Assembly (NCBI GenBank): GCA_031292385.1
Contig: JARLHE010000061.1
Span: 1 to 64,000, forward strand
DNA: 64,000 nt
Origin: Oligoflexia bacterium
GTDB lineage: Bacteria; Bdellovibrionota; UBA1018
Direction of reading: 5' to 3'
The notes under the pieces are model-generated. The model was not told the origin of the DNA and did no database searches. It saw nothing but the letters and a program-made list of their open reading frames with translations. Position 1 is the first letter of the stretch. Every line of letters starts with the position of its first letter. This document shows positions 22,886 to 54,592 of the stretch, one piece after another. Position numbers and translations under genes: made by a program.

Positions 22886-23169
22886 AACGTCCCTCACTTA
22901 AGCGCGAAGCATCGCTTGTGAAGCCGTTAGGGTCGCAATATGCGCCTGAAGCCGGCTACGCAAGCATTTGCCTGAGTTGCCACCTTACGAGCACGTCTGA
23001 GCGTTTAGATCGAAAAGAATAACGAATCGGGCCCGATAACCCGATTCCATTTTCTCCAAACAACGATGTGTTTCCTGCATTCATGAATCACAGCAGCGAT
23101 CCACTCTGCAGACGTTGTCAGCCTGGTGATGGTCGAAGGGCCAACCCCTTCTTCCGACTGACACTCTCA

Positions 23170-24239: not shown

Positions 24240-24471
24240 AGACGTACCTCTCCCCTAAGCGCGCAACCTCACCGTCTGCACGGTTGTTGTGCGCCAACTC
24301 GACTTTGATTAACGCGTCGCGGCACCCATTGGGCAAACGAAGTCCCATTCAGCACTGCGGTTCAACGCAATCCGAGTCCATTTCAGTTAAATTAAGCAGG
24401 AATTTGCTGTACCCCTGCGAAGGCACCCGCTCTACTAAGACCTATTCTTAGTAAAACTGCCTTCACAGACT

Positions 24472-51131: not shown

Positions 51132-51281
51132 AAAAATACCCCGGATTTATCAATAATTCAGCAATATACATACCACCCGCCAGTCACCCAACTCGCTAAA
51201 ACAAATGACTTTTTTCGCGATAAACACCTCCCACGCCACAGAATGCGACCAAACCTTCGGCTACTGCCTAAAAAATATACT

Positions 51282-51308
51282 TAAGGTTTCCCAGCTGTGT
51301 CCGATCAG
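51282..51308 (+). promoter_or_regulatory. Sigma-28-like promoter of flagellin 3
   Basis: TTAAGGTT, an 11-nt spacer and TCCGATCA resemble TAAAGTTT-N11-GCCGATAA. It would give a leader of about 110 nt that contains the GGA hairpin at 51386. Nothing else stands out in the 294 bp before the gene. Confidence 0.5.
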
Positions 51309-51385: not shown

Positions 51386-51400
51386 GACCCAGGATGGGTC
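51386..51400 (+). promoter_or_regulatory. GGA-loop hairpin (CsrA-type site), flagellin 3 leader
   Basis: GACCC and GGGTC form a 5-bp stem around the loop AGGAT, 25 nt before the ATG and 14 nt before the GGAGGA ribosome-binding site. CsrA/RsmA binds GGA in such loops and blocks flagellin translation in other bacteria. Confidence 0.55.
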
Positions 51401-51425
51401 GCGAAAGCCTTCATGGAGGAAGGTT

Positions 51426-52277
51426 ATGGGACTGAGAATTAACACAAACGTGCCTTCACTCGTTGCTCAGAGAAATCTGCGCGGCACGCGTGGCTCTCTC
51501 GACCGAAACTTCGAGAGACTCAGCTCTGGATCCAGAATCAATCACGCTTCCGACGACGCCGCCGGACTCGCCATCTCCGAAAACATGCGCGCACAGCTTC
51601 GCGGCCTAAGCCAAGCCGAGCGCAACGCCCAAGACGGCATCTCCCTCATTCAAGTCGCTGAAGGCGCCGTTGCCGAAATTTCTAATATCTTGATCCGTAT
51701 GCGCGAGCTCGGCGTGCAGGCCTCGTCTGATACGATCGGACAGCAGGAACGCAAATTCCTGAACGTCGAGTTCACTCAACTTTCGCAGGAAATCGACCGG
51801 ATCTCCGCAAGCACCAGCTTCAACAATGTTCCCTTGCTGAATGGACAGGCCTCGACCTTCGAGATCCAGGTAGGTACGGGCAACAATCCGGAAACCGACC
51901 GCATACGGCTTTTCGATTCCAACTCGGCTGACGTGAGCGTGGTCGCCCTCGGGCTCAACCTCGCCAGCGTCGAAGATAAAACAAACTCACAAAACTCCCT
52001 CGCCCTCGTGGATTCGGCCATCAACTCAATTACGTCCATTCGAGCGGACTTCGGGGCCCTGCAAAACAGGTTACAGTCAGTGTCCAATAATATCGTGATC
52101 AGCAAGGAAAACCTCGCCTCGGCGAACAGCCGCATCCGCGACGCCGATCTCGCGGAAGAGACCGCGGAGCTCACGAAGAATCAAGTTCTCATGAACGCGG
52201 GCATCAGCGTGCTGACTCAAGCGAATAGCACGGTGAAGAGCGCCCTGAACCTCCTGGGTAACGGAGGCGGCGGATGA
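51426..52277 (+). CDS. fliC: Flagellin 3
   Basis: A 283-aa flagellin starting MGLRINTNVPSLVAQRNLRG with the SGSRINHASDDAAGLAISEN block. The C-terminal SRIRDADLAEETAELTKNQV and VLTQANSTVKSALNLLGNGG complete D0. The variable centre is minimal. GGAGGAAGGTT precedes the ATG. It is the first of three plus-strand flagellins and differs more from flagellins 4 and 5 than they do from each other. Confidence 0.96.
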   Translation: MGLRINTNVPSLVAQRNLRGTRGSLDRNFERLSSGSRINHASDDAAGLAISENMRAQLRGLSQAERNAQDGISLIQVAEGAVAEISNILIRMRELGVQASSDTIGQQERKFLNVEFTQLSQEIDRISASTSFNNVPLLNGQASTFEIQVGTGNNPETDRIRLFDSNSADVSVVALGLNLASVEDKTNSQNSLALVDSAINSITSIRADFGALQNRLQSVSNNIVISKENLASANSRIRDADLAEETAELTKNQVLMNAGISVLTQANSTVKSALNLLGNGGGG

Positions 52278-52342
52278 GGACCGAGTTTACAACACGCCTA
52301 ACTACGGGAGGACATGGGCCCTAAGTAGTGACGTGTAAAGTA

Positions 52343-52382
52343 GCGTGTGACAGGAGGGCGGAAGCCCGACGTTGTCATGCGC
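52343..52382 (+). repeat. Nested-hairpin repeat, copy 1
   Basis: The outer stem pairs GCGTGTGACA with TGTCATGCGC (two G-T wobbles). The inner stem GGGC/GCCC is closed by a GGAA tetraloop, with GGA and GACGT as the two sides of the internal loop. Confidence 0.85.
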
Positions 52383-52558
52383 ATAGTAAAGAGTTTGACC
52401 CGAAAGCAAGGCAGTTGCCTCGCTTGTTTCCTGGATGCGTACGACGGCGCCGTGCCGTCTTACGCAAGCGTTTGGATTCCGGCCTGCTCCGATCCTCCAT
52501 GATGGATCGGTCGGAGCAGGTCGGCTCCACCGCATGAGCCAGGCGGTTCGGAAAATTT

Positions 52559-52686
52559 GCGTGTGACAGGAGGGCGGGAGCCCGACGTTGTCATACGCAT
52601 GAAAAGCATGACAGGAGGGCGAAAGCCCGACGTTGTCATGCGCATGAAAAGCATGACAGGAGGGCGAAAGCCCGACGTTGTCATAC
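52559..52686 (+). repeat. Nested-hairpin repeats, copies 2-4 in tandem
   Basis: Three copies (52559-52598, 52606-52641, 52651-52686) repeat with a 45-nt period. Each has the TGACA-GGA-GGGC arm, a tetraloop (GGGA, GAAA, GAAA), GCCC-GACGT and TGTCA. Copy 3 has a perfect 8-bp outer stem, GCATGACA/TGTCATGC. Confidence 0.88.
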
Positions 52687-52695
52687 GCATTATAA

Positions 52696-52709
52696 GAGCA
52701 TGGATGCTC
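52696..52709 (+). promoter_or_regulatory. GGA-loop hairpin (CsrA-type site), flagellin 4 leader
   Basis: GAGCA and TGCTC pair around TGGA, so that CATGGATG matches the CsrA core CANGGANG. It lies 60 nt before the ATG. Confidence 0.55.
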
Positions 52710-52768
52710 GATCGGTCCAATATGGGCCGAGTGCTGCACGGAGGATAGCGAAATGAACGGAGACTAAT

Positions 52769-53608
52769 ATGGGTTTGAGAATCGCAACTAATGTGACCGC
52801 ACTCAATGCGCAACGGACGATGGCCGCTACGCGCATGAATCTGGACAAGTCGCTCGAGCGGCTGGCCTCCGGCTCGCGTATCAACCACGCCGGCGACGAT
52901 GCCGCCGGACTCGCGATTTCCGAGAACCTGCGCGCCCAGATCCGCGGCATGCGACAGGCCAAAAGAAACTCACAGGACGGCGTCTCGCTGGTGCAAGTGG
53001 CGGAAGGCGGCCTGAACGAAATCTCGAACATCATCGTGCGACTGCGAGAACTGGCGATTCAATCCGCGTCAGACACGATCAGCGATGTTGAACGCCAATT
53101 CACCGATCGCGAATTCCAGTCGCTCAAGCAGGAAATCGACCGGATCGCGAACGTCACCCAGTTTAACGGCATGCCGATGCTGAACGGCAAAGGCGCCATC
53201 TACGAACTGCAAGTGGGCACGCACAACAACCCTATCCTCGATCGAATCGTCTTCAACGCCGACCGCTCGGACGCGTCCCTGGACGCCCTGAAACTCGGCG
53301 GCGAATCCGTGGCAACCAAGCAGGGCGCGCAGCTCTCGCTCGCGGTCATCGACGACTCCCTGATCCGAGTCAACTCCGTCCGGGCGGACCTGGGCGCGCT
53401 TCAAAACCGCCTCCAGTCGACGATCAATAACCTGGCGATCAGCGACGAGAACCTCTCGGCCGCGAACAGCCGCATCCGCGATACGGACATGGCGGAAGAG
53501 GTTTCGGAGATGACCAAACAGAACATCTTGATGCAATCGGGCATTGCGGTCCTCGGGCAAGCGAACCAGAGCAATCAAGCGGCATTGAAGCTGCTCAGCA
53601 ACGGGTAA
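52769..53608 (+). CDS. fliC: Flagellin 4
   Basis: A 279-aa flagellin: MGLRIATNVTALNAQRTMAA at the start, SGSRINHAGDDAAGLAISEN, then SRIRDTDMAEEVSEMTKQNI and VLGQANQSNQAALKLLSNG at the end. It is nearly identical to flagellin 5 in protein and, over long stretches, in DNA, which indicates recent duplication or gene conversion. ACGGAGAC precedes the ATG. The leader shares an 18-nt block with flagellin 5. Confidence 0.97.
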   Translation: MGLRIATNVTALNAQRTMAATRMNLDKSLERLASGSRINHAGDDAAGLAISENLRAQIRGMRQAKRNSQDGVSLVQVAEGGLNEISNIIVRLRELAIQSASDTISDVERQFTDREFQSLKQEIDRIANVTQFNGMPMLNGKGAIYELQVGTHNNPILDRIVFNADRSDASLDALKLGGESVATKQGAQLSLAVIDDSLIRVNSVRADLGALQNRLQSTINNLAISDENLSAANSRIRDTDMAEEVSEMTKQNILMQSGIAVLGQANQSNQAALKLLSNG

Positions 53609-53667
53609 CGCAATGACGAATTGAACCAGAATTCCCACGCGGGATGGGCTCGCGCGGGATAAACAAA

Positions 53668-53681
53668 GGGCAAGGATGCCC
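53668..53681 (+). promoter_or_regulatory. GGA-loop hairpin (CsrA-type site), flagellin 5 leader
   Basis: GGGCA and TGCCC pair around AGGA, giving CAAGGATG, an exact match to the CsrA core CANGGANG. It lies about 78 nt before the ATG. The 18-nt block GCTGCACGGAGGATAGCG follows at 53720-53737, as in flagellin 4. Confidence 0.6.
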
Positions 53682-53758
53682 GTCGTGACATGGATTCCGC
53701 GCGAGCGGAAAGTCGCGAAGCTGCACGGAGGATAGCGCTAAACATATGGAGATGAAAT

Positions 53759-54592
53759 ATGGGACTCAGAATAAACACGAACATTACTTCGCTCAACGCG
53801 CAGCGAACGATGGCGGCGACCCGCATGAATTTGGATCGTACCCTCGAGCGCCTCGCATCGGGCTCACGAATTAACCATGCCGGCGACGATGCCGCCGGAC
53901 TCGCGATTTCCGAGAATCTGCGCGCGCAGATCCGCGGCATGCGGCAAGCCAAGAGAAACTCACAAGACGGGGTTTCGATGGTGCAGGTGGCGGAAGGCGG
54001 CCTGAACGAAATCTCGAACATCATCGTGCGCTTGCGCGAACTGTCGATCCAATCCGCGTCAGACACGATCAGCGATGTTGAACGCCAATTCACCGACCGC
54101 GAATTCCAGTCGCTCAAGCAGGAAATCGACCGGATCGCGAACGTCACCCAGTTCAACGGCATGCCGATGCTGAACGGCAAAGGCGAAATCTACGAATTCC
54201 AGGTGGGAACGCATAACAACCCCATCCTCGACCGTATCGTGTTCAATGCCGAGCGCTCGGACGCGTCGCTGGACGCTTTGAAACTCGGCGGCGAATCCGT
54301 GGCCACCAAGCAAGGCTCGCAGCTGTCGCTTTCGGTGATCGACGACGCGCTCGTTCGCGTGAACTCGGTTCGCGCCGACCTGGGCGCTTTGCAAAACCGC
54401 CTGCAATCGACGATCAACAACCTGGCGATCAGCGACGAGAATCTCTCCGCAGCGAACAGCCGCATCCGCGACACGGACATGGCGGAAGAAGTTTCGGAAA
54501 TGACCAAGCAGAACATCTTGATGCAATCGGGCATCGCGGTGCTCGGACAGGCGAATAATACGGCAAATGCAGCCCTGAAGCTGTTAGGATAA
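53759..54592 (+). CDS. fliC: Flagellin 5
   Basis: A 277-aa flagellin starting MGLRINTNITSLNAQRTMAA and ending GIAVLGQANNTANAALKLLG. Differences from flagellin 4 are few and mainly conservative (for example GEIYEF for GAIYEL). The ribosome site is ATGGAGATGAAAT. A hairpin follows the stop at 54616. Confidence 0.97.
   Translation: MGLRINTNITSLNAQRTMAATRMNLDRTLERLASGSRINHAGDDAAGLAISENLRAQIRGMRQAKRNSQDGVSMVQVAEGGLNEISNIIVRLRELSIQSASDTISDVERQFTDREFQSLKQEIDRIANVTQFNGMPMLNGKGEIYEFQVGTHNNPILDRIVFNAERSDASLDALKLGGESVATKQGSQLSLSVIDDALVRVNSVRADLGALQNRLQSTINNLAISDENLSAANSRIRDTDMAEEVSEMTKQNILMQSGIAVLGQANNTANAALKLLG

Follow-up and report, generated by a model that had tools for sequence, protein, structure and literature searches.

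Predicted CsrA control of flagellin leaders and a conserved micro-ORF in an uncultured Bdellovibrio relative

In an uncultured relative of Bdellovibrio, we propose that FliW-antagonised CsrA represses the translation of flagellin, directly at the gene fla3 and through coupling to a micro-ORF at fla4. We place the probability of this explanation as a whole at about 0.8. The micro-ORF found in the fla4/fla5 leaders is the new element here. The analysis started from a stretch of 64,000 nucleotides (the window), and all genome material consists of MAG assemblies. The window carries fla3 (283 aa, 51426..52277), fla4 (279 aa, 52769..53608) and fla5 (277 aa, 53759..54592) as neighbouring genes on the plus strand. 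The genome encodes seven flagellins in total, five of them in the window. The other two, fla6 on contig C43 and fla7 on C27, lie outside it and were not part of the first-pass annotation.

Results

GGA-loop hairpins in the leaders of fla3, fla4 and fla5

The first-pass annotation had described one GGA-loop hairpin upstream of each of the three genes. All three are present where it had placed them, and all are recovered when the leaders are folded computationally in isolation. In the fla3 leader, the hairpin GACCC-AGGAT-GGGTC (site 1, 51386..51400, plus strand) is predicted by folding and by covariation among 31 orthologous leaders, in which it forms helix 1. A second hairpin, AGCCTTC-ATGGAG-GAAGGTT (site 2, 51406..51425, plus strand), had been overlooked. 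It is likewise supported by the predicted fold and by covariation (helix 2), and it surrounds the Shine-Dalgarno sequence, which starts in its loop. The fla4 leader contains HP1, GAGC-ATGGAT-GCTC (equivalently GAGCA-TGGA-TGCTC; 52696..52709, plus strand), and HP2, TCGGTCC-AATAT-GGGCCGA (52712..52730, plus strand), identified by alignment and covariation as helices 1 and 2. The stem and position of HP2 are retained in the window, and the loop GGA present in relatives is lost. Downstream, a GGAGGA at 52740..52745 (plus strand), nearly invariant among aligned fla4/fla5 leaders (alignment A1), is both a GGA site and the probable Shine-Dalgarno sequence of the micro-ORF. In the fla5 leader, HP1 is GGGC-AAGGAT-GCCC (equivalently GGGCA-AGGA-TGCCC; 53668..53681, plus strand), supported by the predicted fold and by the covariance model R1 described below. 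It sits inside a 13-bp outer stem, GCTCGCGCGGGAT/ATTCCGCGCGAGC (53648..53706, plus strand; fold z -3.2). Here the GGAGGA (53727..53732, plus strand) falls within an 18-nt stretch identical between fla5 and fla4, followed by the Shine-Dalgarno GGAG (53748..53751, plus strand); the stop codon of the micro-ORF is absent.

Each leader thus has at least two GGA sites: in fla3 both are in hairpin loops, one of them over the Shine-Dalgarno sequence, and in fla4 and fla5 they are HP1 and the GGA of the ribosome-binding sites, where the first-pass annotation had also noted GGA. Its account of the loops holds as well, in that CATGGATG (fla4) and CAAGGATG (fla5) match CANGGANG and CCAGGATG (fla3) does not.

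Hairpin excess and covariation in orthologous leaders

Hairpins of this kind could arise by chance in GC-rich leaders, and taken singly the leaders are weak. In a shuffle test, P was 0.014 for fla3 with its two hairpins, 0.11 for fla4 and 0.13 for fla5. The three leaders jointly, with four hairpins, gave P = 0.0005, a value owed to the second fla3 hairpin around the Shine-Dalgarno sequence. Of 55 other window genes, 9 also have one such GGA hairpin no more than 120 nt from the start, so a single hairpin is little proof. The case for the hairpins as putative regulatory sites rests on orthologues rather than on single leaders.

We sampled 48 fla3 leaders and 80 fla4/fla5 leaders from relatives, all of which were used in counting hairpins and micro-ORFs. 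GGA-loop hairpins number 1.75 per fla3 leader, compared with 0.14 (sd 0.05) in shuffled sequences, and 1.34 per fla4/fla5 leader, compared with 0.13 (sd 0.04). Covariation was analyzed in two alignments with structures partly chosen by eye. For A1, 55 of the 80 fla4/fla5 rows were picked by eye for alignability, a bias that favours structure; HP1 and HP2 are paired in 86.5% of cells, double-changed cells number 167 versus 51.5 in shuffles, and the covariation score is 0.573, with slid structures reaching at most 0.122. In A2, the 31 fla3 leaders, double-changed cells number 18 versus 5.5; helix 2, that of site 2, is paired in 95% of cells, with double changes at four pairs. Stem covariation, a check named in the first-pass annotation, is therefore observed across relatives: the stems change in compensating fashion while the loops keep ANGGAN. 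In three leaders (L133, L141 and L142) the loop of fla3 site 1 is TGA instead of GGA with the stem retained, and these are natural loss-of-site variants. The excess in orthologues and the covariation refute chance as the whole explanation, despite the weak single leaders, and we assign it a negligible probability.

R1, a covariance model for leaders of the fla4/fla5 type with the window fla5 outside the training set, was searched against the genome itself at E<=1. It returned only the leaders of fla4 (52690-52771, 55.9 bits) and fla5 (53662-53761, 37.1 bits). Across the phylum, 102 of 192 genomes contain matches. Among 20 hits inspected, partly by eye, 18 lie upstream of flagellin-like starts, some of these apparent in raw sequence only, and one lies upstream of flgN. 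One relative (G036) has such a leader, L278, in front of flgN, about 3 kb upstream of csrA; it contains GGCC-AGGAT-GGCC and ATGGAGGA, and feedback of CsrA onto its own operon is possible there. A known Rfam family was also considered for the flagellin regions. No credible match was obtained, only sub-threshold eukaryotic or unrelated families, and 6S RNA (RF00013; 56251-56422, minus strand, 75.4 bits) is the sole curated Rfam hit in the window.

A micro-ORF before fla4-type flagellins

The fla4 leader contains a micro-ORF, overlooked in the first-pass annotation, of the sequence ATG AAC GGA GAC TAA (MNGD-stop; 52753..52767, plus strand). It ends 1 nt before the fla4 ATG and has the fla4 Shine-Dalgarno GGAG (52759-52762) inside it. 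The GGAGGA at 52740-52745 lies 7 nt upstream of the ATG of the micro-ORF, over what is, judged from the sequence, the putative Shine-Dalgarno of this ORF. The same arrangement, with a separate GGAGGA upstream and the flagellin Shine-Dalgarno enclosed, characterizes the fla4 type in general. A micro-ORF of 3-6 codons, usually Met-x-Gly-Gly-stop and ending 1-5 nt before the flagellin ATG, is present in 69 of the 80 fla4/fla5 leaders, compared with 4.8% in shuffles. At the level of the phylum it recurs in 10 of 15 analysed leaders found with R1, with other second codons (MQGG, MHGG, MTGG).

Is the micro-ORF translated? CsrA may act on the leaders by plain occlusion, as at hag, with the ATG and stop being by-products of a favoured Shine-Dalgarno sequence and spacer. 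The Gly codons are forced, because the micro-ORF overlaps the flagellin Shine-Dalgarno, and they coincide with it as this alternative would have it; the informative features are therefore the start, frame and stop only. The window fla5, which has lost the stop, manages without the ORF, the window fla3 has no intact one either, and only 1 of the 48 fla3 leaders contains one. Against an untranslated micro-ORF, 67 of 69 stops lying between the Shine-Dalgarno and the ATG share the frame of the GGA, and the three stop codons (32 TAA, 30 TAG, 6 TGA) are swapped freely. The peptides vary (MNGG, MKGG, MTGG, MLKGG, MDG, MQGG, MHGG) and retain start, frame and stop. On the flagellin tree we count at least 17 stop-codon swaps, 11 whole-codon length changes and 32 peptide changes versus 9 gains or losses. 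A scan of 55 other window genes found no micro-ORF (0/55). From these sequence patterns, we consider it probable that the micro-ORF is translated and coupled to fla4, and occlusion with an untranslated ORF rather unlikely. We found no relevant open-access paper that reports micro-ORFs at flagellin genes or CsrA in Bdellovibrio.

Two classes of flagellin leaders

The first-pass annotation saw no equal hairpins before the minus-strand flagellins and suggested two regulatory classes. Indeed, the 120 nt next to flaA and flaB contain no GGA hairpin of at least 5 bp. The division is supported by relatives, in which flaA and flaB leaders are at the hairpin background (0.14 and 0.00 per leader, respectively, versus 0.09 shuffled) and have other conserved elements instead. 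The flaA leader contains a 21-nt element, CAGGGGTACAGCAAATTCCTG, with a short stem and the invariant loop GGTACAGCAAATT (24397-24417, minus strand). It occurs beside flaA, as a rule once per genome, and is present, near-matches included, in roughly two dozen of the 58 genomes. It has no Rfam match and may serve to regulate flagellins of the other class. The flaB leaders of relatives share CTCAGACGTTT...AACTCGGCC about 80-110 nt before the start, of which the window copy (about 22960-23005, minus strand) is degenerate. flaA and flaB, and probably fla7 too, would be outside the CsrA regime. The fla6-type leaders of relatives are enriched in hairpins (0.80 per leader versus 0.12 shuffled), with the GGA hairpin GGCA-GGGAT-TGCC; fla6 of this genome (L012, contig C43) has only a weak hairpin with an 8-nt loop, CCGGC-AAGGAAAA-GCTGG.

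Promoters and the fla3-fla4 spacer

A consensus scan identified a sigma-28-like promoter of fla3, TTAAGGTT-N11-TCCGATCA (51281..51307, plus strand), as a consensus match at 12 of 16 positions. This candidate lies at about -145, and a transcription start downstream of the hairpins, which the first-pass annotation named as evidence against its proposal, is not indicated at fla3. The same scan located sigma-28-like promoters upstream of flaA, flaB, fla6 and fla7 and none visible upstream of fla4 or fla5, and these two genes are probably transcribed by read-through from fla3. The order fla3-fla4, often plus fla5, is retained in most relatives.

The predicted fold of the fla3-fla4 spacer is much more stable than those of shuffled sequences (z -8.9). 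It contains four copies of a 45-48-nt unit, TGACAGGAGGGC-GNRA-GCCCGACGTTGTCA (52337-52384, 52553-52600, 52598-52645 and 52643-52690). We considered whether these repeats are a genome-wide family; clear copies are present at the fla3-fla4 locus only. A role of the spacer as a CsrA-hairpin sponge is not supported for this genome: by the same rule the window spacer has no GGA hairpins, and the spacers of relatives have on average 3.3 per kb versus 1.2 shuffled. The majority of fla3-fla4 spacers in relatives also contain a variable hairpin followed directly by GTTTCCTGGA (window 52396-52437, plus strand), typically 40-190 nt past the fla3 stop. Within it, GTTTCCTG does not vary among the 35 copies aligned, all of them picked with a pattern that itself includes TTTCCTG. 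This element may be a leaky terminator, a processing site or a binding site.

csrA and fliW

Absence of csrA would have spoken against the first-pass annotation. One csrA (E 2e-25) and one fliW were found in the genome, as neighbours located after flgK-flgL, with start codons about 0.27 kb apart. Both genes are present in 56 of 58 relatives, including 35 of 35 good-quality genomes; the relatives without both, G009 and G012, are 82% complete assemblies. The best solved match of CsrA (P0001, 74 aa) is 5dmb_D, and that of FliW is 5dmb_A, a chain of the same entry. FliW binds a C-terminal extension of CsrA; the alignment of the 74-aa protein to the FliW-bound CsrA of 5dmb extends to residue 62.

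Discussion

Control of fla3-fla5 by CsrA, as the first-pass annotation proposed, appears highly probable from the genomic evidence: csrA together with fliW, the covariation, the ANGGAN loops, the phylum-wide association of the leader with flagellins and the hairpin over the fla3 Shine-Dalgarno. ANGGAN is the loop core contacted by RsmE/CsrA (PMC7652899). CsrA usually represses via several GGA sites, one over the Shine-Dalgarno sequence, and its dimer connects a strong site upstream with a weaker one (PMC5574718). Another interpretation is that the hairpins have a function for the ribosome or for the mRNA itself, as standby sites, 5' stabilisers or thermometer-like sequestration of the Shine-Dalgarno, and that the loop GGA is Shine-Dalgarno mimicry and not a protein site. 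This would fit GGA being part of a Shine-Dalgarno and the enclosure of the Shine-Dalgarno itself by fla3 hairpin 2. However, HP1 and HP2 precede the flagellin start by some 40-75 nt, their ANGGAN loops are constant while the stems vary, and csrA and fliW co-occur with the hairpins. We regard it as improbable.

Our preferred explanation, repression by FliW-antagonised CsrA, has points against it. SELEX ligands of CsrA have mostly four or fewer base pairs in the stem (PMC7652899), and several stems of these leaders are longer. The loss of GGA from fla4 HP2, the loss of the micro-ORF from fla5 and the TGA loops in some fla3 orthologues also count against it.

In the proposed mechanism, the leaders of fla3, fla4 and fla5 would be CsrA targets, with FliW setting CsrA activity. 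A CsrA dimer would bridge the upstream hairpin and the GGA in the ribosome-binding site and thereby block ribosomes. At fla3, CsrA would act directly on initiation of the flagellin. At fla4, ribosomes would enter at the upstream GGAGGA and read through the micro-ORF before reinitiating at the flagellin ATG; by blocking the micro-ORF, CsrA could then switch flagellin off through translational coupling. Export of flagellin would free FliW, which would take CsrA away, and translation would rise. These observations suggest that CsrA brakes flagellin production partly through the micro-ORF.

The closest known system for fla3 is hag of Bacillus subtilis, with its Hag-FliW-CsrA partner switch, in which FliW relieves CsrA repression (PMC7652899, PMC6529632). 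The hag leader has two CsrA sites, one over the Shine-Dalgarno, the layout of fla3; csrA and fliW are neighbours there too, and flagellin is the target. In contrast to hag, the flagellins here are in tandem with two leader designs, fla4/5 have HP1-HP2-GGAGGA plus the micro-ORF, and the sites are predicted. The flaA leader of Campylobacter jejuni has two ANGGA-loop stem-loops with compensatory changes, the second over the ribosome-binding site (PMC4894983). It differs in being a single short leader of 45 nt, fliW is not beside csrA, and the leader is not known to contain a micro-ORF. In the fla4 leader, 7 nt separate GGAGGA from the ATG of the micro-ORF, and 1 nt separates the stop of this ORF from the flagellin ATG. 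This arrangement is close to that of iraD/ORF27 of E. coli, where CsrA, with sites at the start region of the upstream ORF, blocks this ORF and thereby the coupled gene; the upstream ORF stops where the regulated gene has its start codon (PMC5574718). ORF27 has 27 codons, compared with 3-6 here, iraD is not a flagellin, and the arrangement here recurs across a phylum. Repeated GGA hairpins are also a property of CsrB/RsmZ-type sponge RNAs; unlike these, the present hairpins are cis elements located at start codons, in a flagellin region without a credible Rfam match.

To our knowledge, CsrA-FliW control of flagellin is established in few lineages only, and we found no earlier report of it in this phylum among open-access papers. 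The prediction made here, backed by covariation, extends it to a phylum that includes predatory and free-living bacteria, with several flagellins in each cell, and by this prediction the flagellins of a single genome fall into two classes. Through the micro-ORF, the CsrA switch would be linked to a start-stop-reinitiate element. With obligatory passage of ribosomes through the micro-ORF and CsrA-controlled entry, flagellin output would depend on termination and reinitiation at one spot. In our estimate it is an even bet that an ORF of 3-6 codons, among the shortest regulatory ORFs known to be conserved, gates the flagellin mRNAs of Bdellovibrionota, with CsrA controlling ribosome entry.
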